From the IMG/VR virus record IMGVR_UViG_3300044799_000910, positions 1 through 20,950 of that record: a DNA stretch of 20,950 bases, one strand, 5' to 3'. This document shows, piece after piece, positions 1,795 through 19,212 of the stretch. The position numbers and the translations under genes are program-made. The notes beneath the pieces are model-generated. The model searched no databases, had not been told where the DNA came from, and saw only the letters and a program-made list of their open reading frames with translations. The DNA comes from a virus. Each line of letters starts with the position of its first letter. Positions within the stretch are counted from its first letter, which is position 1.

Positions 1795-2349
1795 ATGAAT
1801 GTCCGTTACCAGGCGCAATTCGCCAAGCCGCTCGTGAACCAGTTGATTGCCATTCTCCAGCGCGATCAGCAGGCGGCGCTCGACCTGGTCAATGCCGGTC
1901 GGGTGCCAGGGCGCGAGCTCAAGCCCTTCGCCGCATTTCATAAGGAAGTGGTGACGGTGCAGAACTGGCCGGCGCTGGTTCTGGTGGCGCAGGAGACGGC
2001 CTTCGATGCGAACTCTGACGCCGACCTTCGCACCCAAACCGTGCGTTTCCTCTGCGCCCTGGCCATCACGGGCACCGACCCTGAATGGCTGTCGGAAGAC
2101 GCCATGGACTACTTGCGCGCGGTGGACATTGTCCTGACCTCGGCGCCGCTCGCGGACTTCTACACGCCGCTCTCGATCAGCCATCGCACGGTCCCCGAGG
2201 GCGAGACCACGGGGCTCGATTCTGCGGTCTCGAAAATCCGCGACCTGCGCGTCCTCCGGCACGATCTCGGCGTTCTGGTAGGCCGGCGGGGCGGGGGGAT
2301 GGCGCGCGGCCCGCAGATCGAGTTTGTGATTGAGATGGAGGAAAGATGA
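1795..2349 (+). CDS. Probable phage tail terminator / tail completion protein
   Basis: 184 aa. The N-terminal helix (AKPLVNQLIAILQRDQQAALDLV) is followed by a beta segment NWPALVLVAQETAFD, a conserved-looking core LRTQTVRFLCALAITGTDPEWL, and a helix AMDYLRAVDIVLTS. A 'PAL.V' strand, then a strand with hydrophobic alternation, then a helix used to count copies per subject position is what I expect of tail terminators that cap the tail tube. Position after the gpG-like protein and before tail genes fits. The family call is mainly contextual. AAGGA at 1784-1788 with a 6-nt spacer supports the ATG at 1795. The stop TGA overlaps the next ATG by 4 nt (ATGA), so translation is probably coupled to the fibre gene. 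Confidence 0.5.
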   Translation: MNVRYQAQFAKPLVNQLIAILQRDQQAALDLVNAGRVPGRELKPFAAFHKEVVTVQNWPALVLVAQETAFDANSDADLRTQTVRFLCALAITGTDPEWLSEDAMDYLRAVDIVLTSAPLADFYTPLSISHRTVPEGETTGLDSAVSKIRDLRVLRHDLGVLVGRRGGGMARGPQIEFVIEMEER

Positions 2350-5300
2350 AAGAAGGAGTCGGGAGTCAGAAGTCAGGAGTCAGAATGCCGCGGAAGTGGA
2401 CAGTGAACAGTGGACAGTGGATAGCAAAGCGGCTGCTGCAACCCGGCCTTCTGCTGTTCACTGTTCACTGTGCACTATCCACTGCTCTGAGCGCCACGCA
2501 TGTTACTGCCACCTACGACCTGGGCGCGAACCCGCGCGTGATGGCGACGGTGAACGGCACGCCGCAATACGGGCTGGTGTTCGCGCAGAGAAACAAGCTG
2601 GTCACTTATGGCGACGTCGAATACGGCCCAAGTGTGGTGAAAGCCTACCTCAACACCAGCGGCCAACTGAACGACGGCGCGGGCAACCTCTGGCTCGACT
2701 TGATCCCGAACCTGGGCGCCACGCCCGGCGACAGCTATTATGTGCTGACGCTCAACATCCAGGGGCGCGTCCACGCGGAAATCTGGGTTGTGCCTGACGT
2801 GGCCAGCGTCAGCGCGGAAGTCTGCCGCCAGGCCCAGCCACCTTCCTCAACCTCCCCCGCGCTTTTCTACCAGTTCCTCCAGCAAGACGGCGACGACCTG
2901 CCGCAGCGTCAAAAGCTGAATTTCTCCGGCTCCGGCGTCAACTGCGTGGACAACGCCGGACAGTTGCGGACTGACTGCACCGTCTCCGGCGGTGGCGGCT
3001 CCGTCCCCAAGGCTTCAGCCACCAGCTCGGGCACGGTGAAAACCGACACGACCGAGAGCGATCCCGTCGTCTATCTCAAGTCCAGCGCGGACTCCCTGCT
3101 GGCCGCCAAGGCACCACTCGCCCACGGCCACGCGGAATCGGACGTGACGAACCTGGTCACCGACCTCGCCGGCAAGGTGGCGAGTACACGAGCCGTAAAC
3201 ACGACCGCGCCCTTGAGTGGCGGAGGCGCGCTATCCTCCGACCTCACGCTTTCCCTGCCGGCCGCATCCGGCTCCCAGAACGGCTACCTGACTTCCGCCA
3301 ACTGGACAACGTTCAATTCGAAGGAAAGCGCCCTCAGCTTCAATGCGCCCCTCAATCGCTCCGTGAATACCATCTCCATTCCCCAGGCCTCAGGCTCCCA
3401 GAACGGGTATCTGGCGTCTGGCGACTGGACGACCTTTAACAACAAGGTTTCGACTTCGCGCAGCATCTCGACGACCGCACCGCTCTTGGGCGGCGGGAAT
3501 CTGTCGGCCGATCGCACGCTCTCCATTGATTTGTTTGGAACCTCGCCAGGGACTAAGGTTGTCAGCACTTCGCTCGCAGGTGACCCGAGCGCCGACAACT
3601 GCGTGAAATGGTTAGCCGGCGGGAAGCTAGGCGACGCGGGCGCGGCCTGCGGCTCGGGCGGTGGGGCACACAACCTGTTCAGTGCAACGCATTCGGATAC
3701 GGTGGCCACCACACCAGTTCTCGGTGATATTCCCTACGCCAACTCGACTCCTGCGTGGACGAAGCTCGCAGGGAATACAACTACAACCAAAAAATGGCTG
3801 AACCAGACTGGCAACGGTTCCGTCTCTGCTGCGCCACGGTGGGATGCAATTGCAGACGGCGACCTACCCAACACCATCGTTCGCACCTCCCGGAATGTTA
3901 GTACCTCCTCACCTCTTGGCGGCGGTGGGACGCTTGCTTCCGACCTCACTCTGACTTGCCCCACCTGCGAAGTCACGGGGAACAAGAATGCCGCCAATGG
4001 CTATGCCGGCCTGACCGCCAGCACCAAACTCAACGTCGCGCAGGGCCAGGAAGTTTGGGGCCTCTCAGACCTGAGTAACGTGAGTGGCACGAGTGGCTCC
4101 GGCTCGACGGCAATTCTCTCCACTTTGACCGGCCTGGCGGCAAACGATCTGCTGAAATGGAGCGGGTCAAATTGGGTCAACACTTCGTTCATCCCGGAGT
4201 CACAGGTCACAAACCTGACGACCGATCTGGCTGGAAAGGTTCCGACATCCCGCAACCTGAACACCAGTTCGCCCCTCGCGGGTGGCGGCGCGCTGAGCTC
4301 CGATCTTACCCTCACCTGCACTACCTGTGAGTTAACAGGGAACAAAAACGCAGCTTCCGGCTATGCGGGATTGACGTCAGGAACGAAGCTCACGGCTGCG
4401 CAAGGTCAAGAGGTTTGGGGCGTCAGTGACCTCACCGACTACGCGACCAAGAGCGGGACGGGGACGGCGGCCGTTGCCGCTACGTTCACCAGCCTGACCA
4501 CGAATGACGTGGTGACTTGGAACGGGTCGAACTGGATCAATCAGGCCCCTTCAGGCGGTTCCGCCTTCTCCGCCATAACTACTGGCACAAACACCGCAGC
4601 CACAATGACGGTTGGTAATGGGGCAACCCTGAATGGTGCGGCGGGCGGAATCGTTAATCTCTCAGCGCTTACTCCGACGACTGGATTCAAGGTTCCGGTA
4701 GGGGCGGGCGCAGCGCCACTGACTAGCGGTCTGCTGGCTTACGATTCGACGGCCAACGAATTCAAGGTTGGCGTGAATGGCGCAACGAAAACCTTGGCGC
4801 GAGCCGACGGTAATATCACCGGCACGGCGGCGGGACTCTCGGCAACCCTCGGGCTGGCCACTGGCGGGACGAACCAGACTTCATGGACGAGTTCGCGATG
4901 CGTGCAAGTAAATTCCGGTGGAACCGCATTGGAGTCAGCGGCGGCGGCGTGCGGCTCGGGCGGCAGTGGAGACAACATCTCGGTCAATGGCACGGCCGCG
5001 ACCGACGCGGATTTCGATGATTCGACCCCGGCGGCACCCGCGAACGCCATCAATGTGAAGTGGCAGAAGGACGCCTCGACCCCGACCAACATCTCGGCTT
5101 ACTGGCTGAGCACCGCCGTGGGCGTGACGATTTTCGGCAGCGGTTCAGCCTTCACTTGGTCATTCGACGATGATGCCGCGACGAGTCCCTCTATCGGCTT
5201 TTCGGCGGGTGGGATTACTCTGACCGCTACGGGGACGAACCAGAACGTGACGCTGACCCCCAGCGGCACCGGCGTCGGCAAGGTAGCCTCGAACACCATC

Positions 5301-7364
5301 GAGACGCAGAATAACAAAAACGCCGCGAGCGGGTACGCTGGACTGACGGCCGGGACCAAACTGACCGCTTCGCAAGGCCAAGAGGTTTGGGGCGTCAGTG
5401 ACCTCACCGATTACAGCACCACTTCGGGGAGTGGCTCGACCGCGCTCAAGGCCACCATCACCAGTCCCTCGTCCAATGATGTGCTCACCTGGAACGGGTC
5501 TAATTGGATTAACCAGGCAGCGAGCGGCGGCTCGAACCACAACCTCCTGTCCTCGACCCATGCGGACAGCGACGCGGGCAGCGCAGTACTTGGCGACATC
5601 ATCTCGGTGAACTCCACCCCACACTGGCAACGCGTTGCCGGAAACACCACCGGCACCAAGAAGTTCTTGACCCAGACCGGAACGGGATCGGCATCGGCCC
5701 TGCCTGCTTGGGGCACGATAGCGGATGCTGACATTCCAAACACTATAGCGCGGACGGCGAGCCCGACCCTGACCGGAACCGTGACGGTCAATGGAGTCGT
5801 CAATCAGAGCACTAGCAACAGCGGGACGGGCGACTTAATAGGCGTGATGACTGCGGCAACGTCCACACACACCTCCGGGTCGCAGGAAACTGTGGTTGGC
5901 GTGTCCGGTAATGCCGCGCACGATGGGGCCGGAGGAGCTACGACAACTCTCGCCGGTGTGGGCGGGTACGCCGAGATTGACGCTGGAACTGCGTCGAACC
6001 TAATGAGCCTCGTTGCATATTCGAACGGGAGCTACGGGGGCACAGCCACCAACAATTACGGGCTGTTCGTCCAGGCCCAGACCGCAGGCACGACAAATTA
6101 CGCGATATTCACTCAGGGGACCGCACCGTCCAAATTCGGTGGTGCCGTGGACGCTGTGGGCGGCTTCAAGGTCAACAGCGCGGCGACTAACCACTCCGTT
6201 TTGCTTGGCAACGGCACGATTTTCCAAGGCAGTGGCGCGATTCCCGACTGCCAAGACGCCGGCGGGAACCACCTGAATTACACGCAATCAAGCCAGGCCT
6301 TTAGCTGCGGAACCACTGGCGGTAGTGGGGGTGGGGATAGCATCTCCGTAAATGGCTCGGCAGCGGCAGACGCGGACTTCGACGACTCGACGCCTGCTGC
6401 GCCCGCTAACACCATCAATGTGAAGTGGCAGAAGGACGCCAGCACCCCGAACAGCCTCTCGGCCTACGTGCCCTATGCCTCGCCACTTACCGTAGCCAGT
6501 GGAAATCTCACTGTGGGAAACGACTCCATTGGACCAACCCAAATTGATGAGACGGCCAGTTACTCGTTCTCGGGAACCCTGGGCACCCCCGTAAAGGCCG
6601 ATCCCGGCTCGCCGACGGTCGGGGAAATCTGGGTCAACCAGTGGGCCCTCAGGTACAGGGACAACAGCGGTACGCCGGTTACGCGAACCGCCGAGGTTAT
6701 GTCCAACAAGAACGTAGCGAGTGGTTATGCTGGACTGACTGCATCGACGAAGCTCAACGCCAGCCAGGGTCAGGAGGTCTGGGCGTTCACCGATTTGTCA
6801 GACGTTGCCATCAGCTCGCCATCTACCGGCCAAGTGCCGCGCTACGACGGCTCCGGTTGGGTCAACTCCGCCCTGGCCTGTACGGACGTCACCAATTGCC
6901 CATCGCTGGTAGCTGCGGGATCTGCGGGGATCAGTGCCTATAACGCGGGTGCGGCAGCAACCGCAGCGCGCAGCGACCACACACATCGGGTCATTCGCAC
7001 GATGCAGTGGTACTTTCCTGGGACAGTCGTGGCTGGGGTGCAAACCGCGCGGTCGCTCGTCCCCGAGGGAGTGTCGAACTGCGCTCTTACCAACTCACGC
7101 CTGACCGCAGGCACAGTGGGCGGCACTGCGACTGCCTGGAACATCCAGCGCTGCACGACAGCCGCAGGTGACTGCACAGCAACGGCAGACATCTATTCGG
7201 GCAACATCACGCTGAACGCCTCTACGCAGTCGGTAGCGGGCGGGACGCCAAACACAACCACAGCCACAGCAGGCGACGCCTTCCGGGTAAATCTGGCGTC
7301 CGTAGGGACAAACCTGGCGGACGCAACTGTCGCTTTGAGTTACACATGCGAAAATACCAACTGA
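2346..7364 (+). CDS. Large modular tail fibre protein with repeat-encoded signal peptide
   Basis: 1672 aa, low-complexity Gly/Ser/Thr/Ala-rich, made of shuffled modules. NKNAASGYAGL...GQEVWG blocks start near residues 546, 666, 990 and 1454. HNL...STH / AGNTT..KK blocks start near 442 and 1065. GD.ISVNG...DADFDDSTP blocks start near 876 and 1331. SxNxxTSSPLxGGGxLSSDLTL blocks alternate with these. A GTNQNVTLTPSGTG motif also occurs in the tailspike at 16765. An ARSDHTH motif typical of fibres lies near the C-terminus. ATG 2346 overlaps the upstream stop and has GGAGG at 2337-2341. ATG 2385 is an equally good start, with AGGAG (2375-2379) supplied by a heptamer array. From either start, residues 28-50 form a basic plus hydrophobic stretch KRLLQPGLLLFTVHCALSTA, which reads as a Sec signal peptide and is encoded by a heptamer hairpin. 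Receptor binding is the likely role. Confidence 0.75.
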   Translation: MKEGVGSQKSGVRMPRKWTVNSGQWIAKRLLQPGLLLFTVHCALSTALSATHVTATYDLGANPRVMATVNGTPQYGLVFAQRNKLVTYGDVEYGPSVVKAYLNTSGQLNDGAGNLWLDLIPNLGATPGDSYYVLTLNIQGRVHAEIWVVPDVASVSAEVCRQAQPPSSTSPALFYQFLQQDGDDLPQRQKLNFSGSGVNCVDNAGQLRTDCTVSGGGGSVPKASATSSGTVKTDTTESDPVVYLKSSADSLLAAKAPLAHGHAESDVTNLVTDLAGKVASTRAVNTTAPLSGGGALSSDLTLSLPAASGSQNGYLTSANWTTFNSKESALSFNAPLNRSVNTISIPQASGSQNGYLASGDWTTFNNKVSTSRSISTTAPLLGGGNLSADRTLSIDLFGTSPGTKVVSTSLAGDPSADNCVKWLAGGKLGDAGAACGSGGGAHNLFSATHSDTVATTPVLGDIPYANSTPAWTKLAGNTTTTKKWLNQTGNGSVSAAPRWDAIADGDLPNTIVRTSRNVSTSSPLGGGGTLASDLTLTCPTCEVTGNKNAANGYAGLTASTKLNVAQGQEVWGLSDLSNVSGTSGSGSTAILSTLTGLAANDLLKWSGSNWVNTSFIPESQVTNLTTDLAGKVPTSRNLNTSSPLAGGGALSSDLTLTCTTCELTGNKNAASGYAGLTSGTKLTAAQGQEVWGVSDLTDYATKSGTGTAAVAATFTSLTTNDVVTWNGSNWINQAPSGGSAFSAITTGTNTAATMTVGNGATLNGAAGGIVNLSALTPTTGFKVPVGAGAAPLTSGLLAYDSTANEFKVGVNGATKTLARADGNITGTAAGLSATLGLATGGTNQTSWTSSRCVQVNSGGTALESAAAACGSGGSGDNISVNGTAATDADFDDSTPAAPANAINVKWQKDASTPTNISAYWLSTAVGVTIFGSGSAFTWSFDDDAATSPSIGFSAGGITLTATGTNQNVTLTPSGTGVGKVASNTIETQNNKNAASGYAGLTAGTKLTASQGQEVWGVSDLTDYSTTSGSGSTALKATITSPSSNDVLTWNGSNWINQAASGGSNHNLLSSTHADSDAGSAVLGDIISVNSTPHWQRVAGNTTGTKKFLTQTGTGSASALPAWGTIADADIPNTIARTASPTLTGTVTVNGVVNQSTSNSGTGDLIGVMTAATSTHTSGSQETVVGVSGNAAHDGAGGATTTLAGVGGYAEIDAGTASNLMSLVAYSNGSYGGTATNNYGLFVQAQTAGTTNYAIFTQGTAPSKFGGAVDAVGGFKVNSAATNHSVLLGNGTIFQGSGAIPDCQDAGGNHLNYTQSSQAFSCGTTGGSGGGDSISVNGSAAADADFDDSTPAAPANTINVKWQKDASTPNSLSAYVPYASPLTVASGNLTVGNDSIGPTQIDETASYSFSGTLGTPVKADPGSPTVGEIWVNQWALRYRDNSGTPVTRTAEVMSNKNVASGYAGLTASTKLNASQGQEVWAFTDLSDVAISSPSTGQVPRYDGSGWVNSALACTDVTNCPSLVAAGSAGISAYNAGAAATAARSDHTHRVIRTMQWYFPGTVVAGVQTARSLVPEGVSNCALTNSRLTAGTVGGTATAWNIQRCTTAAGDCTATADIYSGNITLNASTQSVAGGTPNTTTATAGDAFRVNLASVGTNLADATVALSYTCENTN
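2354..2388. repeat. Heptamer array, RGGAGTC type, inside the 5' coding end of the fibre gene
   Basis: Five in-phase units: AGGAGTC, GGGAGTC, AGAAGTC, AGGAGTC, AGAATGC. The fourth supplies an AGGAG Shine-Dalgarno (2375-2379) with a 5-nt spacer to ATG 2385, whose A and TG fall in the fifth unit. If translation starts at 2346, the array encodes residues 4-14 or so. Confidence 0.85.
2396..2482. repeat. Heptamer inverted-repeat (hairpin) element encoding a signal-peptide-like segment
   Basis: The left arm has four units of GTGRACA type (2396-2423: GTGGACA, GTGAACA, GTGGACA, GTGGATA). After a 31-nt loop comes a right arm of four reverse-complement units (2455-2482: TGTTCAC, TGTTCAC, TGTGCAC, TATCCAC). 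The arms pair over 28 bp with about five mismatches, several of them G-U capable. The element is translated: the left arm gives KWTVNSGQWIA, the loop gives KRLLQPGLL, the right arm gives LFTVHCALST. Confidence 0.9.
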
Positions 7365-8035
7365 TTGCTCTGGTTGCTTTCCTGCTGGTGGCGCGCTGCG
7401 GAAGCGGGCAGACAACACTCTACCTGCGCAGCGCGCCGTCCCTACTGGGCACAGTCTCGTGGGGCGGGGCAGGGATCGGCTGTGACAACGGCAGCCGGAA
7501 CTATACCTGGTATCAGGCAAACACGAGTTCAGGCACGGAAACCTCGAACAACTTCCCCCCGACGAACTCCTCGCCCCCCTGCTACCATCAAAACAGCACG
7601 GTTTTCTGGCGCTGGATCTCGCCTCCGTTGTCGGCTGCCATCAACCTGACGGGAAACTACGACTACTCCGTAAAGTGCCAAGAATCAGCCAACCAGCTCA
7701 ACGCGGGAGTGGACTTTGTAGTCTACCGATGGAGCCGAACCCTGGGTGGGATTGACCTGCTGCTCGACGACAGCGCTACGACCACGGAGTGCAGCACCGG
7801 CGGTGGGACGCTGACCATTGCCGCCCACGCTCCGAGTTGCGGGTCGAGCTGCAGCTTGGCTGTCGGCGACCGCATTGTAGTCATCGCCCGGGTCCAAACC
7901 GTTGGCACCTGGGGCGGCAACGGCACCCGTACCTTCACGCTCTACTACGAGGGTGCCAACACCTTCGCGCACCTGGCGCAGACAGTCTCGTTTGCAGCGG
8001 ACACCAACAACGCACGGGCGTTGGTTTTCCCCTAG
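7346..8035 (+). CDS. Cys-rich secreted-looking protein of the fibre cassette, function unknown
   Basis: 229 aa, not recognised. The N-terminus MRKYQLIALVAFLLVARCGSGQ has a basic start and a 12-14 residue hydrophobic core, reading as a Sec signal peptide. LVARC resembles a lipobox but has Arg at -1, so a lipoprotein is doubtful. Six further cysteines lie in the mature part (GIGCDNG, PPCYHQ, VKCQES, TECSTG, PSCGSSC), and the rest is beta-strand rich (FTLYYEGANTF, TQTLSFAAD-like strands), suggesting a disulphide-bonded beta sandwich. It overlaps the fibre gene by 19 nt, with ATG at 7346 and only a weak GAG upstream, so it is probably translated by coupling. It could be a fibre-associated virion protein, a fibre chaperone-like partner or an exported accessory (moron). 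The signal peptide argues against an ordinary cytoplasmically assembled virion part. Confidence 0.65.
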   Translation: MRKYQLIALVAFLLVARCGSGQTTLYLRSAPSLLGTVSWGGAGIGCDNGSRNYTWYQANTSSGTETSNNFPPTNSSPPCYHQNSTVFWRWISPPLSAAINLTGNYDYSVKCQESANQLNAGVDFVVYRWSRTLGGIDLLLDDSATTTECSTGGGTLTIAAHAPSCGSSCSLAVGDRIVVIARVQTVGTWGGNGTRTFTLYYEGANTFAHLAQTVSFAADTNNARALVFP

Positions 8036-8814: not shown

Positions 8815-8886
8815 GATCGGGTTATCGGTCCATCGAACCATCTATCCCTCGATGAACCGATGATCCGATGAATCGATGGAGGGATC
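8815..8886. repeat. Octamer array with inverted halves, nine units
   Basis: Nine 8-bp steps fill the gap: GATCGGGT, TATCGGTC, CATCGAAC, CATCTATC, then the reverse-complement type CCTCGATG, AACCGATG, ATCCGATG, AATCGATG, and GAGGGATC. The phase is unbroken through the turn. The junction of units eight and nine creates GGAGG (8878-8882), the ribosome binding site of the chaperone gene. Confidence 0.9.
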
Positions 8887-11368: not shown

Positions 11369-11382
11369 GGAAAGGCGAAAGT

Positions 11383-11438
11383 GGGAAGTAGGAAGTTGGA
11401 AGTAGGGGCCAATTTCCTACTTCCTATTTCCTACTCCC
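11383..11438. repeat. Heptamer hairpin, RGGAAGT / TAYTTCC type, eight units
   Basis: Left arm GGGAAGT, AGGAAGT, TGGAAGT; turn AGGGGCC, AATTTCC; right arm TACTTCC, TATTTCC, TACTCCC, all in one 7-bp phase. Arms 11383-11406 and 11115+300 region 11415-11438 pair over about 23 bp with a single-base bulge and two mismatches. It is followed by AGGTGA (11445-11450), which serves the GTG start at 11458. Confidence 0.92.
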
Positions 11439-11457: not shown

Positions 11458-14400
11458 GTGACGAAACGGGTAAAAGATTTCTGGCCGGGAGACTTCGAGC
11501 GCGACCTGAAGCGAACCCTCGGCTGGCTCTATAGTCGGCAAAACGCGCCGTGGGATAACTGGCAGGGAAACGCGCGCGGCACGAATACGACCCCCAGCCT
11601 TTGTCAGTGCGGCATCCTCTCAACCGCCGACCTTTCGACTTTCGCGCAAGCCGCGATGGAAAACATCGTCTTCGACGTGCCGCCGGGCATGACGGAGGAC
11701 CTCACGACCGGCCCGGATGGTTTCCCCCTCAACTACTCGCCCACGCTTCTGCCGCGCGGCTACATCTTCCTCAACACCTTCCAGCATACTTACACGCTCA
11801 CGGTGACAGGGCGCTGCTTCTCGCTGCTTCAAGTCGCGAGCAATTATCGCGTCGATTTCTTCGTCTGGACCGACCAGTGGTATTACAAAGGCAGCACCTC
11901 GCTCGTTGACGCCAGCGGGGGCATGGCCACCTGGAGCCGGCAAATCAATTTCTACAGCTATCCGGGCGCCTTGCTCGCTGTCCTTTATCCCACCTCCATT
12001 GCCCAGCCGCCGAGTGACTGGGAAGGCGAGACCCTGCCCGCTGGCTGGAAGGCCCACAGCAATATGGGTGTCGGCAAGAAGCTCGTGAACTACAAGGCGC
12101 GGGTCTACGACCGAACCAACGTCGAATACCTCAAGGAAGATGACATCCCCATCATCGTCCAGGACCGCTGCCACGCGCGGGCCGGCTCGGCCAAGGCCTC
12201 CGGCTCAGGCACGCCGACCATGCACATTGTGTGGAATGATCCGGTGGTAGGCTGGCGGCGGGTTTTCACTTCGCTGCAGCAGCTCGCGGTGATTGACGAC
12301 CTCCCGCGCTCGCTCGAGGTGCCACCTTCTGACCCCGAATTTGCGCCGGATGTCACCTCAGTCAAACCTTTCCGAGTACAGAACCGCTCCTGGATCTACG
12401 ATGCCGCTCTGGCGATCATCGCCTATGCCTATGCGGGCAACTTCCTGGGCGCCCTGCGCATTCTGGATCGCCTGAAGAAGCATCTCGACGAGCAGAAATA
12501 TCTGGCCGCAACGACTTTGGAGAATTGCGAAGATGGCTCCATAGCCCGTTGGACGAAGGCAGGCGATCCCGGTGCTTATCTGGAGACCTTCAACGACCCC
12601 CTGCGCGAGCCTTACGGCGGCGGCAAGCAGATGAACTTTCACGCCGCCGCGGCAGGAGACAACTTCACCTACATCGGCCCGGCGGTTTACGGCAATGGCC
12701 TACCCGACTCGGCCGATTTCATCATTCAATGGCAATTTCGCGCCGCGGCATCGATGACCTGGCAGTTTGAGGTCAGCCTGACCACAGAGCACAACAACGT
12801 TACCAGGCTGAAAGTGACAAGCGACCCGGCTGGCGATCCGACCTACGACAGCGGCACCAAGACCATCACCTACACCATCGGCCCGAGCGAGAACGACTAT
12901 GTCTTCTGGAAATTTGATCTGAAGGCACTCTGCGCTGAACTCGCTTCCGACACTTGGATCTCGACGACGGGCTTCAAAGTGGTCCTGAATCAGGCAGGGG
13001 GGCTGTACTTCGATAACCTCAGCTTGGGCACCTACCAGCCGGCAGGCTCACTCAGCTTCTCCTACGATGTGTTTTACGGGCTTCCCGACCAGTTTTATGT
13101 TCGCACCGGCGCTATGGCCTGGCTTTGTTATGCCTACGCGCTCTACATGGAGTTGACCGCAGATTACACGCCGGCGCTTACGCTCCAGCGGATGCTGGAT
13201 TTTATCTTGACCCTGGAGTCGAGCGACCCGGACCTGCGCCAAGGGCTGTTTTATGGCGGCTTTGGCGAGTATGAAGACCCCGGCTATCATTACGTTCCCG
13301 GCCTCTGCGCCTGGTGTTCCACGGAACATAACGTTGACCTCTATTTCGCCTTTAAGCGCGCTGCGAGAATCCTCCCCCTAGCCGCTACAGAACTCTTGAC
13401 GCGGGGCACGATTACCGGTGCTCAGGCCACGTCACTCAACACGCTGGCGACGACAGTTGACAGCAAAGCGGCCAACGTTAAGACGAAGATCCTGACCAAT
13501 CTCTACATCGCGCCGGGCGCCGATCCCGGCCACTTCGCCCAAGGCGTGCAGGATGATGGCACGCTGGACACGGCGGTGGCCCTGGACGCGGCGGGCACGT
13601 GGTCAGCGATCTTCTGCCACGAAGTGGGCGACGATACCAAAGCCACTGAGTGCCTGAAGTTCGTCTATCAAAAGCTTTATCTCACCAACAAGCAAATCGT
13701 GAAATCGAGCCAACCCAACAGTTGGAACATGGCTTATGAGCAACTCACGCCGTTTGATGGCTTCAAGCCCTACGGCACGGGCTATTCCAATCCGCCAGCG
13801 TCTGTTTGGCAAGAGGGGACCTGGGGCGTGATCAGCGCGCTCTTGCGCTGCCAGGATGTGGCCGGCGTGCAAAGCTATTTCGCGAGCGTCGAAGGCTCCC
13901 TGGACGCCTTCCTGACCAAACTGGTGCGCGGGCAGAAGATCATCTTCTCGACCACCGGTGACGGATCATTGCTCAATTACTCCCTTGCCTCGCGCAGCCT
14001 GCCGTATGAGTTCAGCGTGTGGGCAGGCATCGCCTCCACGGCGTGGCTGTGGCTGACGGCGCAGAATCCCACACTGCTGCTGGCCGCGGAAACCACTTGG
14101 GAATTGCGGCCGTATTTAAGAGTTCCGCGCGGGGTGGAGCAGAGCATTGACCAACTGGAAGGCCAAGGCTCCATCGGCGCGCTCGAACTCGAAGCCATTG
14201 ACGGCGCGGGCTACCTAACCGGGCTCGCCAGCGGCGGGAAGCTGGAAGGCAGGAAGGTGACGCTCAAAGTCGGCTATCCCGGCTTGACGTCCGCGGAGTT
14301 CGTCACTCTGGCTACGCAAGAGATTGAGGCCGTCACCACGCTGGGCGATCTGACCGGCTTCGTGCTTAACTGCCGCGACTTGAAACGCACTACCAAGGCG

Positions 14401-15450
14401 AAAGTGTTCCAAAAGGGCGATGACGGATTTCCGATTTCCCGCGACCACCCCCGAACGCTTTCCGCGAACCCGATGGATGTCTGCCTGATCATCTTGCAGA
14501 ATGAGCTCGGCATCGGCCAGGTGCCCGGCGCGCCGCCCTCCGCGTGGAACATTTACGATCCCGCGCAATGGTCAGGGGGATTGAATCCCACCCTCATCAA
14601 CCCGAATCCTTATCTGGACGTCGAGGGGTTCTTGTCTTACCGCAACAGCATCTTCGCGGGGTACGTCTTCGACTTCCGTTTTCAGGAGCCCGTCGAGGCG
14701 AAACAATTTCTGGAATACGAGATGTTCAAAGTCCTGGGCGGCTACCTCATCGTGCTGGCGGACGGCCGACTCTCACCACGCTTCTTCGTGCCGCCTTACA
14801 GCCTCCTGGACCTCTTCAGCTTCAGCGACCGCAATATGACCGCGCTGCCGGGGGTCGAGCGGCACGCGATCATCAACCAAGTCACGTACCGGATGGACTA
14901 CGATGGCTCGAAGTTTCAGACCGAACTGCTCTTTCTCTATGCTCCGTCGCTCCAACAATTCGGCCTGGCGGGCCAGCACACAATTGAGTCGAAGGGCATG
15001 AAGCTCACACGCGGCGGGGCGTCGCTCGCCGGCATCACGGCGAATCGCATCTTCAAACGCTACGGCGGCCTCGACCCGGTTTCCGGCCAGGCCATGGGCG
15101 GAGCATCAATCCTCCACCTCAGGACGCAGTACCTGACGCTCACCGTGGAGGTCGGCGACTTCGTTTACGTCAATCATCCGCTGCTGCCGAACTTCCTTAC
15201 CGGACAACGTGGCATCTACAACCGAATCTTTGAAGTGATCGAGCGGCAGCCGAATTTCAGCGAAGGCATGATGACGTACAAACTGCTCGACACGAGTTGG
15301 ATGGCTTCGAAGAAAGTCTCGCGCGTAGCGCTGGATGGCACGTTGGCCTGGCCCCAGGCCACGCCCGCCCAGCGCGAGCGCTACATGTTTGTCTGTGCTC
15401 ACGCGACGAAGCAGTACAGCGACGGCACGGCAGGCAAGACTATCTGGTGA
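11458..15450 (+). CDS. Tail hub protein fused to a putative (alpha/alpha) toroid carbohydrate-active region
   Basis: 1330 aa, GTG start with AGGTGA at 11445-11450 (7-nt spacer). Three parts can be seen. Residues 1-300 are beta-rich tail-like sequence. Residues about 300-880 contain repeated helix-pair patterns of (alpha/alpha)n toroid glycosidase-like proteins: WIYDAALAIIAYAYAGN (312), YVRTGAMAWLCYAYALYM (about 545), CSTEHNVDLYFAF (620-632), SVWQEGTWGVISALLR (782-797). Glu623, Asp627 and Glu786 are candidate acidic residues. A beta-sandwich insert (about 352-525, ending LYFDNLSLG) resembles a carbohydrate-binding module. Residues about 880-1330 (SIDQLEGQGSIGALELEAIDG, LEGRKVTLKVGYPGL) look like the hub or gpJ-like body. 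Likely role: baseplate hub carrying an enzyme against the cell surface or a capsule. Enzyme class is not assignable from sequence by eye. Confidence 0.6.
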   Translation: MTKRVKDFWPGDFERDLKRTLGWLYSRQNAPWDNWQGNARGTNTTPSLCQCGILSTADLSTFAQAAMENIVFDVPPGMTEDLTTGPDGFPLNYSPTLLPRGYIFLNTFQHTYTLTVTGRCFSLLQVASNYRVDFFVWTDQWYYKGSTSLVDASGGMATWSRQINFYSYPGALLAVLYPTSIAQPPSDWEGETLPAGWKAHSNMGVGKKLVNYKARVYDRTNVEYLKEDDIPIIVQDRCHARAGSAKASGSGTPTMHIVWNDPVVGWRRVFTSLQQLAVIDDLPRSLEVPPSDPEFAPDVTSVKPFRVQNRSWIYDAALAIIAYAYAGNFLGALRILDRLKKHLDEQKYLAATTLENCEDGSIARWTKAGDPGAYLETFNDPLREPYGGGKQMNFHAAAAGDNFTYIGPAVYGNGLPDSADFIIQWQFRAAASMTWQFEVSLTTEHNNVTRLKVTSDPAGDPTYDSGTKTITYTIGPSENDYVFWKFDLKALCAELASDTWISTTGFKVVLNQAGGLYFDNLSLGTYQPAGSLSFSYDVFYGLPDQFYVRTGAMAWLCYAYALYMELTADYTPALTLQRMLDFILTLESSDPDLRQGLFYGGFGEYEDPGYHYVPGLCAWCSTEHNVDLYFAFKRAARILPLAATELLTRGTITGAQATSLNTLATTVDSKAANVKTKILTNLYIAPGADPGHFAQGVQDDGTLDTAVALDAAGTWSAIFCHEVGDDTKATECLKFVYQKLYLTNKQIVKSSQPNSWNMAYEQLTPFDGFKPYGTGYSNPPASVWQEGTWGVISALLRCQDVAGVQSYFASVEGSLDAFLTKLVRGQKIIFSTTGDGSLLNYSLASRSLPYEFSVWAGIASTAWLWLTAQNPTLLLAAETTWELRPYLRVPRGVEQSIDQLEGQGSIGALELEAIDGAGYLTGLASGGKLEGRKVTLKVGYPGLTSAEFVTLATQEIEAVTTLGDLTGFVLNCRDLKRTTKAKVFQKGDDGFPISRDHPRTLSANPMDVCLIILQNELGIGQVPGAPPSAWNIYDPAQWSGGLNPTLINPNPYLDVEGFLSYRNSIFAGYVFDFRFQEPVEAKQFLEYEMFKVLGGYLIVLADGRLSPRFFVPPYSLLDLFSFSDRNMTALPGVERHAIINQVTYRMDYDGSKFQTELLFLYAPSLQQFGLAGQHTIESKGMKLTRGGASLAGITANRIFKRYGGLDPVSGQAMGGASILHLRTQYLTLTVEVGDFVYVNHPLLPNFLTGQRGIYNRIFEVIERQPNFSEGMMTYKLLDTSWMASKKVSRVALDGTLAWPQATPAQRERYMFVCAHATKQYSDGTAGKTIW

Positions 15451-15520
15451 TCTAGTGATCGGGTCATCGGGCCATCTAAAGATCGCCCGATGATCCGATG
15501 GCCCGATGGGGAGATATATA
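15449..15520. repeat. Octamer array with inverted halves, nine units
   Basis: Nine 8-mers span 72 bp: GATCTAGT, GATCGGGT, CATCGGGC, CATCTAAA, GATCGCCC, GATGATCC, GATGGCCC, GATGGGGA, GATATATA. CATCGGGCCATC (15465-15476) is matched exactly by GATGGCCCGATG (15497-15508). The stop TGA of the hub overlaps the first unit and the ATG at 15522 follows the last unit after one base, so the array is the entire gap. GGGGAG (15508-15513) provides the ribosome binding site. Confidence 0.93.
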
Positions 15521-16108: not shown

Positions 16109-16771
16109 ATGGCTATCGTTCGAACTGTTCTTCCACGCAAAGGAATCATTCAGCCGAAGCACGGCGACAACTACGAGACGGATCTGGACACCAACTGGGA
16201 GTTGCTCGACTCCCTGTTGCAGGACGCCGCAGACGTCCAGGCAACGGTGCTCGCCGCCGGGACGGTCGAAGCCTGGTTGCTGGATCTCAACCTTTCCGGC
16301 GTCATCAGCGGGTTCCAGCTTGGCACCTCCGCTGATCTGACCCCGACGCTGTCGCTTGGGGTGCTCTACGCCCAGGGCAAACGTTATGCGCCGGCCACGG
16401 CACCCAATCCCGGCCCAGCGCCCGCTGAGTCCACAAGCTACCTCTGGTATAACTCGGCCAGCGGCTTCTACTACAACTTGACCGGATCGCCCGCTGCCAA
16501 TGGCGACGCCTACCTAGGCAGCGTGACCACCGATGCGACGCGCGTCACCGCGGTGACCACCGCCACGAAGATCTATGCGCACGTTCCGGTGACGGCGCCA
16601 GCGGCGGGGAGTCTCAACGTCGAGCACCACCTGGGCCGTGCTCCGCTGGGAGCTCTGATCTGCATGACTTCGAGCGGGGGCGTCTGGTTTCAGTCCTCAA
16701 TGTGGGACGGCACGAATCTCTATCTGGTGGCTTCCGAGGCGGGGGTCACCGCGAAGGTGCTGCTATGGTGA
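16109..16771 (+). CDS. Fibre / tail adaptor protein
   Basis: 220 aa from ATG 16109, preferred over an in-frame upstream start at 15914 that would overlap the previous gene and read through the heptamer element. The N-terminus KHGDNYETDLDTNWELLDSLL is typical of proteins starting phage tail-fibre modules ('..P..G........d.N..liDs.l'). The middle GVLYAQGKRYAP...SYLWYNSASGFYYNLTGSPAANGDAYLGSV resembles the repeated fibre-shaft or adaptor pattern 'yvyvd..G.......P..g....g.v.t'. The C-terminus (HHLGRAPLGALICMTS...SMWDGTNLYLVASEAGVTAKVLLW) is a small beta domain. GAGG at 16098-16101 comes from the preceding array. Its end overlaps the tailspike gene by 7 nt. Probable role: joins the tailspike to the baseplate. 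Confidence 0.6.
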   Translation: MAIVRTVLPRKGIIQPKHGDNYETDLDTNWELLDSLLQDAADVQATVLAAGTVEAWLLDLNLSGVISGFQLGTSADLTPTLSLGVLYAQGKRYAPATAPNPGPAPAESTSYLWYNSASGFYYNLTGSPAANGDAYLGSVTTDATRVTAVTTATKIYAHVPVTAPAAGSLNVEHHLGRAPLGALICMTSSGGVWFQSSMWDGTNLYLVASEAGVTAKVLLW

Positions 16772-19212
16772 CGGGAACTGAGAAAAGGAAAGGCAAAGGT
16801 CAAGAGTTGAAGGTTGAAAGTTCAGCGTTCAAGGCCCTGCTTGGCCTGCTGTTACTTTCAACGTTCAGCTTTCAACTTTCAACGGCGCACGCCCAACAGC
16901 CACAGACTTCTGTGGCGCCTATCTTCAGCGCCAACGCGAAGTATGTCCAGGGTGTCGGCCCGGGATACTGGCCGACAGCGGGCGCCGGGCTGACGCTGAA
17001 CCTGGCGCCTGGCACGGCCTACTGTGGCAATCCGCCGCTGCTGGTCACCTACGCCGGTGGCTCGCTGGCGATGACAGATGGAGCCACGAATTACGTTTAT
17101 CTCGACCCGGCCGCCTCCTGCGCGCCAGCGAAGAACACGACGGGCTTCGCGGTGGGGGTCATCCCCCTGGCGAAAGTAGTGACGGCGGGCGGGGCCATCA
17201 CGAGCATCACGGACGCACGGGGCTGGTTCGCGCCCCTGCCCTGCACCATGGGCTCGACGGGGGCCGTCACTTGCGCGGCCCTCGGCACGAACCAAAACAT
17301 CAGCCTCTCGCCCAGCGGCACAGGCTACACCAGCATCGGGAATAGGCTCCAGACGCCGTACTCCTACTACGCTGAATGGGGCGCGGATGACGTGGAGATT
17401 GCGGCCAATCATGACGTAGACTTGGACCTCCTGAAGGACCCCAGCAAGAGCTCGTGGGACCTGTGTATTTCTTGCGGTGGAGACGAGGTCTCTGCCTGGC
17501 GCGCGGCGCCGACCGCGGAGACCCCCTCCTTTGTGAAGAAGTGGAGCATTGGCTACGACGGCATCGAGAGAGTGGAACAAAACATCCTCGCACCCCGCCT
17601 TAACGACGTGCGCTACGCCAACCAATTCCCCACAATTCAGGCCGCCATCGACGACCTGCCCAGCACCGGGGGGATGGTCATTATTCCGCCGGGGGAATAC
17701 TTTACAGATACGATTGTCCTTCCGCCCAGCCCGAAGATTGTGCATCTGGTGGGCGCGGGAATTCGGGCCACCACCCTGCGCGCCAATGCACCTAACATCC
17801 CCATCCTCAAATTGGCGGCGGGAGACAACGTGGAGGGCGACGTCTTCTCCGGGTTCTCGGTGCAGGCACACGCTTCGGGTTCGACCGGACCGGCCATTGA
17901 TATGTCGGGCATGCGGAGCGCCGTCTTTGAGGACATTGGCTATCTGAGCAACTTTAGCGCTAATTTCAATTCCTTCTTTCACCTGGCGTCCTATCCTGGA
18001 TACTCCTATGGGAACATCATCCGTCACCCCGTGGTGCAAGGCCAGACGGGCCCGCCCACGGTGTTTCTCTTCGACAGTGGCGGAACGGGTGACCCTGACA
18101 ACAACCCCAACGCCAATGCCATCTACGATCTTTGGGTCAACGGGAACAGCGGCATCACGACCGTGATCGATGCCCGGCGTTCGGCCATGAGCACCATTAG
18201 CGGGGGGTTGGTGGAGAGCAATCCCGGGGCCGTGGTGCTCATTCCGGGCACTCACACCGTCTTCGAAAACGTCTGGATGGAACTGAACGCCGCGACGCCC
18301 GTGGTACCCACCAGCGGAAGCGACGGCTCGTCCAACGCCGTGAAGTTCTTGAACAACTATATCAGTTCGGCGTTCACCCTCACCTTGCCCGCCTACATCG
18401 ACAACTGGCTAATCTGGGGCAACCATCCTGCCGCGAACCTGACCGTGGTGGATTCAGGCTCCAACAACATCGCCCAGTACGGCGCCACCTTCCAATCCGG
18501 CAAAGCGGCGGCGGAATTAGTGCTGAGTAACACGACCGCAGGGGGCCGCGATTGGGGGTTGCTGTTTCACGGTACCGGCGGGGCCTATCCGGGAGCCTTG
18601 GTCATCAAAGACAAGACCAACAACTTGAAACGCTTTGGCTTGGAGCCAACCCAGAATGTGCTGGCCGCTCCGGCAACCGATGGACTGGCACTGCGGCTGG
18701 TTCCTTTTGATGACACGACGCCGACCAATGCGGTGTTGTCGCTCACGGACGCTGGGCAGACGACCACGAAGCTAGCGTTTCGCAAGAACGGGCAGATTAA
18801 CTCCAGCGTCCCCAGCGGCACGGCACCCTTCGTCGTGGCCAGCACTACGCCGGTGGCCAACTTGAGCCTGAGCGGCGGGCCCGGCACTTCGGTTTCTGTG
18901 GCAAAGCTTTTGACGCCGGTCAACACCGTTGCTTTCTCTTCCACGCCGGACTTCGACGCCAGTTTGGCAAATACGCACAAGATTACACTGACGGGCAATG
19001 TGACCAGCTCGACGCTTTCGAATGCCAGCGCCGGGCAGACCATCAGCTTCCTGATCTGCCAGGACGTAACCGGCGGGCGGACGTTCACTTGGCCCACGAA
19101 CGTCTTGGGCGGGATGACCATCGGCTCGACCGCCTCCAAATGCAGTGCGCAAACTTTCATCTTTGATGGCACAAATGCCTATGCCCTCAGCCCCGGCGTG
19201 ACGAATATGTAG
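16765..19212 (+). CDS. Beta-helix tailspike (pectate-lyase-like) with repeat-encoded signal peptide
   Basis: 815 aa from ATG 16765 (AAGGTG at 16754-16759), overlapping the previous stop. Residues about 24-43 (ALLGLLLLSTFSFQLSTAHA) form a hydrophobic core ending in an AHA site followed by QQP, a good signal peptidase I site. It is encoded by the heptamer hairpin 16804-16883. Residues about 60-160 are a fibre adaptor region (TNYVYLDPA...GFAVGVIPLAKV). GTNQNISLSPSGTG matches the large fibre. From about residue 288, FPTIQAAIDDLPSTGGMVII plus GEYFTDTIVLP is the classic start of a pectate-lyase-3 type right-handed beta helix, running to about 560. The C-terminus (LTGNVTSSTLSNASAGQTIS, then RTFTWPTNVLGGM, DGTNAYALSPGV) is a trimerisation-like beta domain. 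Likely surface-polysaccharide binding or depolymerising. Confidence 0.75.
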   Translation: MVTGTEKRKGKGQELKVESSAFKALLGLLLLSTFSFQLSTAHAQQPQTSVAPIFSANAKYVQGVGPGYWPTAGAGLTLNLAPGTAYCGNPPLLVTYAGGSLAMTDGATNYVYLDPAASCAPAKNTTGFAVGVIPLAKVVTAGGAITSITDARGWFAPLPCTMGSTGAVTCAALGTNQNISLSPSGTGYTSIGNRLQTPYSYYAEWGADDVEIAANHDVDLDLLKDPSKSSWDLCISCGGDEVSAWRAAPTAETPSFVKKWSIGYDGIERVEQNILAPRLNDVRYANQFPTIQAAIDDLPSTGGMVIIPPGEYFTDTIVLPPSPKIVHLVGAGIRATTLRANAPNIPILKLAAGDNVEGDVFSGFSVQAHASGSTGPAIDMSGMRSAVFEDIGYLSNFSANFNSFFHLASYPGYSYGNIIRHPVVQGQTGPPTVFLFDSGGTGDPDNNPNANAIYDLWVNGNSGITTVIDARRSAMSTISGGLVESNPGAVVLIPGTHTVFENVWMELNAATPVVPTSGSDGSSNAVKFLNNYISSAFTLTLPAYIDNWLIWGNHPAANLTVVDSGSNNIAQYGATFQSGKAAAELVLSNTTAGGRDWGLLFHGTGGAYPGALVIKDKTNNLKRFGLEPTQNVLAAPATDGLALRLVPFDDTTPTNAVLSLTDAGQTTTKLAFRKNGQINSSVPSGTAPFVVASTTPVANLSLSGGPGTSVSVAKLLTPVNTVAFSSTPDFDASLANTHKITLTGNVTSSTLSNASAGQTISFLICQDVTGGRTFTWPTNVLGGMTIGSTASKCSAQTFIFDGTNAYALSPGVTNM
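16804..16883. repeat. Heptamer hairpin (GTTGAAA / TTTCAAC) encoding the tailspike signal peptide
   Basis: The left arm, read as GTTGAAG, GTTGAAA, GTTCAGC, GTTCAAG (16806-16833), and the right arm TTTCAAC, GTTCAGC, TTTCAAC, TTTCAAC (16856-16883) match as reverse complements at about 22 of 28 positions, around a 22-nt loop. It is translated: left arm ELKVESSAFK, loop ALLGLLLL, right arm STFSFQLST, directly before the AHA cleavage site. Degenerate purine-rich 7-mers may extend it upstream to about 16780. Confidence 0.9.

Follow-up and report, generated by a model that had tools for sequence, protein, structure and literature searches.

The DNA analyzed here is one entire IMG/VR record (IMGVR_UViG_3300044799_000910; 20,950 bases, hereafter the window), which we read as a prophage of a soil bacterium. 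Genes of the window match phage head, neck, and tail families in Pfam and PHROG searches, and a host-type CorA gene lies close to its right end. At one gene junction, the TGA of an upstream gene of 184 residues (1795–2349, plus strand; from the list of open reading frames (ORFs), with homologues in four IMG/VR loci) overlaps the ATG of a fiber-like ORF of 1672 residues (2346–7364, plus strand; likewise listed and with homologues), giving ATGA. The fiber-like ORF begins with an element of tandem 7-base units, or heptamers, and our analysis concerns the evidence that this element is translated and provides the protein with a predicted signal peptide. Loci used for comparison carry L numbers and genomes carry G numbers.

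The heptamer element and its translation

The segment 2337–2349 holds GGAGGAA (2337–2343) and the ATG at 2346 that overlaps the upstream stop. It is followed by an outer purine array of the unit GGAGTCR (2355–2383; sequence and Tandem Repeats Finder (TRF)), which forms part of the n-region and supplies the AGGAG in front of an alternative ATG at 2385; the earlier note on this DNA had named both starts and their ribosome binding sites, and both are there. Next, all on the plus strand, come a left arm of purine heptamers (GTGGACA/GTGAACA, 2395–2424), encoding the polar n-region WTVNSGQW; a spacer or loop (2419–2456), encoding KR and the start of a hydrophobic core (LLQPGLLL) and resembling a loop in locus L217, an intergenic copy from a Terriglobia genome; and a right arm of pyrimidine heptamers (TGTTCAC, 2454–2484), encoding the remainder of the core (LFTVHCALST). 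The c-region and putative signal peptidase I site (ALS/A or SA/THV, the slash marking predicted cleavage) occupy 2485–2495, as judged from the homologue ends AFA/A, AFA/N, and AIA/G. The conserved mature N-terminal domain (THVTATYD..., 2496–3030) is 56–92% identical to the window among aligned relatives. Taken together, the N terminus encoded by the element is MKEGVGSQKSGVRMPRKWTVNSGQWIAKRLLQPGLLLFTVHCALSTALSA/THVTATYD, and the ORF reads through the whole element in the frame, and with the signal-like translation, that had been described.

An inverted-repeat search placed the arms at 2395–2417 and 2454–2476, 91% complementary over 23 nucleotides and 36 nucleotides apart, and TRF called period-7 arrays at 2395–2421 and 2454–2484. 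The earlier formula (GTGRACA)4-loop-(TGTTCAC)4 had the inverted repeat and its coordinates right and made the arms too perfect: three of the four left-arm units (GTGGACA, GTGAACA, GTGGACA, and GTGGATA) fit GTGRACA, and two of the four right-arm units (TGTTCAC, TGTTCAC, TGTGCAC, and TATCCAC) are exact. The periodicity is not due to chance, as lag-7 identity in the 150-nucleotide signal region was 0.55 compared with 0.25 in codon-order shuffles (z = 8.0; 0 of 2000 as high).

Relatives of the fiber-like ORF were collected from IMG/VR, three Terriglobia metagenome-assembled genomes (MAGs), and two further genomes of the same class; among the weaker places, mostly matches inside the domain, N termini were inspected for L149–L152 and L159. 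In all 10 close-relative loci, the stretch from the start codon to the mature part consists of a period-7 array whose translation resembles a signal peptide, with lag-7 identity above codon-order shuffles in each (z = 5.4–9.0). Pooled over nine loci, leaving out L004 as a near copy of the window, autocorrelation was 0.51, 0.49, and 0.43 at lags 7, 14, and 21 and about 0.23–0.30 at other lags; the mature region showed no peak at lags 7, 14, or 21.

The frame is preserved as well. In each of the 10 loci, the distance from the ATG that overlaps the stop of the upstream gene to the mature part, 126–201 nucleotides, is divisible by 3, so that the two share a frame; if the six array families count as independent events, the probability of this by chance is about (1/3)^6 = 0.0014. 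That ATG is the sole in-frame ATG, GTG, or TTG before the mature part in L003, and in L010 no such codon occurs from codon −51 up to the mature part. Over the 15 mature codons that precede the first conserved Met, nine homologues differ from the window 9, 12, and 55 times at codon positions 1, 2, and 3, respectively, and this concentration at third positions implies that coding extends to the edge of the array. We did not count the conserved GGAGG before ATG 2346 as evidence, because the end of the upstream protein is encoded by the same bases. This double duty, together with the fact that most arrays in host DNA are untranslated repeats just 5′ of start codons (for example, at yicC in L217), favors the view that the array is a junction repeat, that the gene starts downstream of it, and that the signal peptide is an overannotated N terminus. 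The third-position pattern, the missing start codons in L003 and L010, and the frame kept in every locus make that view highly improbable. The comparison indicates instead that the repeat is translated, and the pyrimidine array must be; the earlier note had called translation almost certain, and the homologues with starts downstream of the repeat that would have contradicted it did not appear.

Replacement of heptamer families and signal-peptide character

At this one site we found six heptamer families, despite flanks that are up to about 90% identical. The right-arm unit is TGTTCAC in the window and L004; TTCTTTC/TTCTGGC in L003; TTGTCAC in L005, L011, and L149; TTTCTGC in L009 (= L016); TTCCTAC in L010; and TTCTGAC with variants in L012 and L151. 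Compared with the window, L003 has flanks (300 nucleotides on each side) that are 0.89 and 0.92 identical and a signal region that is only 0.47 identical, and the corresponding values for L010 are 0.85, 0.92, and 0.35. L004 shows the opposite, with flanks of 0.87 and 0.89 and a signal region of 0.97. Gradual drift would not easily produce high identity in the flanks and low identity between them; the families differ while the flanks stay alike, which indicates that the tag has been replaced wholesale, repeatedly. Tags made from different arrays (LAFLLLTPFFFLLAPAFA/A, LGLLLVTCHLSLVTAFA/A, FCFLISAFCLLLSAFCFLPSAFA/N, and AFALLATSYFLHPTSAIA/G) all open with a basic n-region, continue into a hydrophobic core, and close with an A-x-A-like end. 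Two distant relatives of about 33% identity, L152 and L159, carry what look by eye like plain signal peptides at this place; the direction of change between the plain and the heptamer form is one that we can only infer.

In neuO, a gene of the CUS-3 prophage, heptanucleotide repeats near the 5′ end of the coding sequence are a known phase-variation switch (PMC13001214), and the heptamers could be such a switch here, with their hydrophobicity incidental. The array units are few and imperfect, however, and it is the unit rather than the copy number that changes between homologues. Two close pairs, window/L004 and L011/L149, keep their length although their flanks differ by 11–20%. All 10 loci are in the ON frame, without the frame-shifting copy-number variation of a neuO-like locus, whereas 65.6% of neuO-bearing genomes are out of frame (PMC13001214). 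We therefore regard a switch as very unlikely.

A second gene of the window, ORF 16765–19212 (plus strand), has the same arrangement. Its start (ATGGTGA) shares bases with the stop of the gene upstream, and sequence and homologues give it a predicted repeat-encoded signal peptide, MVTGTEKRKGKGQELKVESSAFKALLGLLLLSTFSFQLSTAHA/QQPQT. A left purine array of GTTGAAA-like units (16806–16832), read from the sequence, lies under the threshold of our array detector; a right pyrimidine array of TTTCAAC (16854–16883; TRF and sequence) encodes STFSFQLST, and the TTTCAAC heptamers read KALLGLLLLSTFSFQLSTAHA/QQPQT. Among 17 relatives with an alignable N terminus, 12 have a lag-7 z above 5; the remainder are L184 (2.8), L180 (1.9), L190 (1.9), L127 (1.0), and L189 (0.8). 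The 17 do not include L191–L196, where the match begins inside the domain (L193 and L194 look by eye like plain signal peptides), or L128, which is fused to a longer protein. L127, L189, and L190 have plain signal peptides in front of an identical mature start, for example MMVKRLIAALIVVASTFVAQA/QQPQT in L127 and MKRNLIWPLLFLMAHVASA/QNPQT in L190. These plain relatives end at the same point, and we therefore take the junction to be a signal-peptide site that the heptamer form is one way to fill.

Signal peptides were called with a crude, untrained caller that was loosened after a stricter version, which flagged 2 of 58 viral arrays and 0 of 12 arrays in the MAGs of homologues, had missed most cases. 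The looser caller was positive in 9 of 10 members of the first family and 16 of 17 of the second, so the absence of any predicted signal peptide, which would have spoken against the earlier note, was not observed; because the caller was set after the stricter one failed, its counts describe rather than test. By this caller, the tags have the features of Sec export and signal peptidase I cleavage, with a positive n-region, then a hydrophobic core, and, ahead of the mature part, an A-x-A-like site, and Sec export followed by such cleavage would fit them. At 42 to 67 residues, the stretch in front of the mature part is long, and cleavage is something that we infer, so the segment might instead be an uncleaved N-terminal membrane anchor. 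This seems unlikely to us, as A-F-A/A, A-F-A/N, or A-I-A/G recurs before the mature part across different arrays and the plain relatives of the second gene have AQA/QQPQ or ASA/QNPQ at the same point.

The element could also have been retained for an RNA hairpin that acts on translation or mRNA stability, with coding as a by-product. The window does fold better than its shuffles (z = −4.2 and −2.6 in two runs), as do L004, L005, and L012, but in L003, L011, L149, and L151, z lies between −0.3 and −1.2. Since folding clearly exceeds that of shuffles in only a subset of homologues, we rejected the hairpin as a conserved feature, and we give that explanation almost no credence. The fold is not shared whereas the coding property is, and what persists appears to be the pyrimidine-rich heptamer array read as hydrophobic residues. 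The earlier phrase, a hairpin exapted as a signal peptide, accordingly stands for the repeat-coded signal peptide and falls for the hairpin.

Source of the arrays and what they encode

A sampled genome of the same phylum has 47 period-7 arrays per 400 kb, compared with at most 4 at any other tested period, multiples of 7 excluded. When the window element was searched as DNA against 299 genomes of the class, 20 had matches. The best copy, L217, lies in G002, the MAG of L011, and is 75% identical over 130 nucleotides, including the outer array, both arms, and the loop. Its loop matches at 27 of 38 positions, a score reached by 0 of 200,000 random 38-mers of sampled G002 DNA. L217 is intergenic: an ORF ends at 1459 on one side of it, and on the other side a gene that we take to be yicC, from its MIRSMTGYGRV start, begins at 1610. 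This position points to dispersed non-coding DNA as the source. The arms of L011 and L012 gave 17–43 and 18–94 matches per genome, respectively, in six genomes of the class Terriglobia and 0 and 1 in a seventh (G453). Fifty loci from the element and arm searches comprised 29 that were intergenic, 11 that overlapped a called gene, and 10 without an array by the detector. Four of the 50 (L227, L228, L247, and L258) are the fiber-like genes in question, of which two fell into the intergenic class as the caller began the gene late; the remaining gene overlaps among these loci lay in C-terminal tails or in gene interiors and added no signal peptide. The window element belongs with these dispersed junction heptamers, which have many period-7 copies, mostly between genes. 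As for possible mobility, the window arms are inverted repeats and one copy of the whole element (L217) was found.

The arrays are also polar. The ratio of purine to pyrimidine strands was 39:7 near stops and 7:33 near starts (Fisher p = 2.6e-10), and 25:3 and 1:20 in the host sets alone (1.2e-9). In L240, L249, L255, and L265, purine arrays form the C-terminal tails of called host genes (ending in ...GVRGSGLGVRG or ...ARSQKSE before the stop), a counterpart of the pyrimidine arrays at N termini. L238 and L244 (G003:C174) have arrays inside a called gene of at least 921 residues, apparently as in-frame interior insertions; the gene presumably encodes a protein like Mfd.

A 7-base unit yields the identical heptapeptide in all three frames. 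For the pyrimidine units, these heptapeptides (LFTVHCS, LVTCHLS, LLSAFCF, and others) have a mean hydropathy of 0.13 to 2.39, and the purine units encode polar residues. Over 119 arrays, mean hydropathy was +0.30 on the pyrimidine strand and −1.22 on the purine strand, with stops in 126 of 357 and 177 of 357 frames, respectively. The TTCTGAC unit contains a stop unless altered. At TTC/TGN (here the slash divides codons), the N is an A at 0 of 10 places that are in frame, at 6 of 23 that are out of frame, and at 68 of 112 places in host arrays; units that would give a stop have changed where they are in frame, a count that partly restates the open frame.

Interpretation and comparison with known systems

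We propose, with a probability of about 0.8, that the N terminus of the fiber-like ORF is a Sec-type signal peptide derived from a dispersed, normally intergenic heptamer element. Such an element, made of purine arrays, a loop, and a pyrimidine array, would arrive at gene junctions by insertion or recombination. Where a downstream start overlaps an upstream stop, the arrays would land within the export tag and could assume its function, because their heptapeptide is independent of frame and because the strand that mostly faces the gene downstream is the pyrimidine one, with its hydrophobic sequence of Leu, Phe, Val, Cys, Ser, and Thr. A wider proposal, to which we would give less than even odds, is that junction arrays might serve as ready-made, frame-blind signal-peptide cassettes, symmetric in that the purine arm comes first on either strand, that yield an export tag immediately when placed at a gene's start and are exchanged repeatedly among phage fiber-like genes of several bacterial groups, so that DNA replacement would renew the tag at a higher rate than the protein diverges.

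Several observations weigh against the proposed signal peptide. The looser caller was set post hoc, fails L012 in the first family and L187 in the second, and is also positive for 23–29% of host genes (152 of 564, 33 of 141, and 28 of 97; 357 of 2000 for residue-shuffled sequences). An export tag on a protein of the phage tail region is odd if this is a virion part that assembles in the cytoplasm. Lastly, convincing signal peptides were found in 0 of about 131 host arrays (G070, 87; G191, 11; G003, 21; G002, 8; and G334, 4) in about 1.69 Mb of five genomes, from which we conclude that arrays do not readily become export tags.

General exaptation in hosts was consequently rejected within the sampled DNA. 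The one host array flagged by the strict caller (L119 965) was judged a spurious, weakly coding ORF, and the open frame through the array at yicC in L217 is most likely not used. A strong lag-7 excess was seen in 0 of 486 called host N termini in G070, 0 of 116 in G003, and 0 of 90 in G002; two “strong” genes of 75 in G191 proved to be masked runs of N. The host negative is softened because the gene caller favors starts after arrays (it started L016 at 7980), and some host scans used the longest open frame instead of called starts.

Scans of viral DNA by pattern gave no case for TTCTGAC (52 stretches) or TTGGAGC (34 stretches). With TTGTCAC (16 stretches), the caller gave L268 and L271 (= L126), and L279 (= L005) was lost to a filter; L268 encodes a predicted lipoprotein with a heptamer signal peptide, MKKKLLLVTCHLSLVTLFAGC. 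With TTTCTGC, 51 sites yielded 34 that were open with a start and 18 that were called. Six of these loci (five genes) were convincing by eye, and the other 12 look like spurious ORFs. The cases are MQRLIFVSAFCFLLSAFGQ (L387 = L402), L389, L392, and L400, with L398 less sure; no further in-frame start lies upstream in L387, L389, L392, or L400, and the hits of L387 and L392 to virion and tail families are weak. Recurrence is thus seen in phage surface-type proteins. L268 also contains, on the reverse strand from 6092, a fiber-like ORF with TTGGAGC heptamers in its hydrophobic core (FLGAWSLGFGAF), where lag-7 identity is weakly raised (p = 0.016).

Concerning the nature of the protein, the large tail fiber of the earlier note is plausible from the place of ORF 2346–7364 among tail genes, whose products match head, neck, and tail families, and from its internal repeats; the ORF itself matched no Pfam or PHROG family, tail-fiber families included, at E ≤ 0.001. 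The mature domain had no match among INPHARED phages, and a PDB sequence search returned just two chains (E = 0.15–0.16), which we did not accept as relatives. AlphaFold models of the mature N-terminal domains of both genes were useless (mean predicted local distance difference test scores of 34.5 and 32.0). By eye, plain signal peptides occur on several proteins among phage tail genes (window 7346–8035, L127, and L190), which is odd for virion parts built in the cytoplasm.

Other repeats occur at junctions of the window. An intergenic heptamer hairpin of AAGTAGG/TTCCTAC (11379–11435), an element of the same kind in an untranslated position, lies directly 5′ of the GTG start at 11458. Period-8 arrays (ATCGGGCC-like; 464–499, 8850–8878, and 15442–15509) form a second repeat class at gene junctions, and palindromes of the CCCTGAAGGGC type, resembling repetitive extragenic palindromic (REP) sequences, have 33 nucleotides duplicated at two junctions (560–626 and about 1741–1780).

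The origin and rapid turnover of signal peptides are an open question, and tags of unrelated repeats between near-identical flanks make replacement directly visible. They show how translation can pass safely through a repeat of a length not divisible by three, and they would give the widespread, unexplained junction heptamers one concrete protein-level consequence. For annotators the warning runs both ways, as most heptamer N termini are spurious and a few are real.

Among open-licence PMC papers, in the parts available, we found no report of orthologues with signal peptides from different heptamer arrays. In Yersinia, the RU-2/YPAL miniature inverted-repeat transposable element forms part of one predicted signal peptide, that of YPO1552 (Delihas 2007, PMC2759123; PMC2229807). 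As in our case, relatives carry unrelated signal peptides; unlike it, the account concerns one locus and one 168-bp element without tandem heptamers, and describes orthologues without serial replacement by different elements. Rickettsia palindromic elements (RPE), a family of 105–146 bp, likewise place a palindromic repeat in frame within protein genes; of the 19 reading frames concerned, many encode conserved proteins (PMC2229807). RPE has its own sequence, whereas the repeat described here would make an export tag and belongs to different sequence families in different orthologues. The AAGACTC heptanucleotides of neuO in CUS-3, present in 3 to 53 copies, also lie in tandem within the 5′ coding portion of a phage gene, whose frame they switch (PMC13001214); they are not described there as a signal peptide, and our units are few, imperfect, and always in frame. 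Intergenic heptamers have been reported as TAACTGA in Beggiatoaceae (PMC4679880), GGGAATC in Xanthomonas and GGGGAYT in Nostoc (PMC4692102), and MTYCTGA in Geobacter metallireducens (PMC2700814). The term “signal peptide” does not occur in the main text of these three papers, the first of which discusses heptamer translation and repeats at protein ends. All of them describe period-7 arrays at gene junctions, as found here, and in Xanthomonas and Nostoc the G-rich strand is sense after stops and antisense before starts (PMC4692102), the same polarity as in our arrays.
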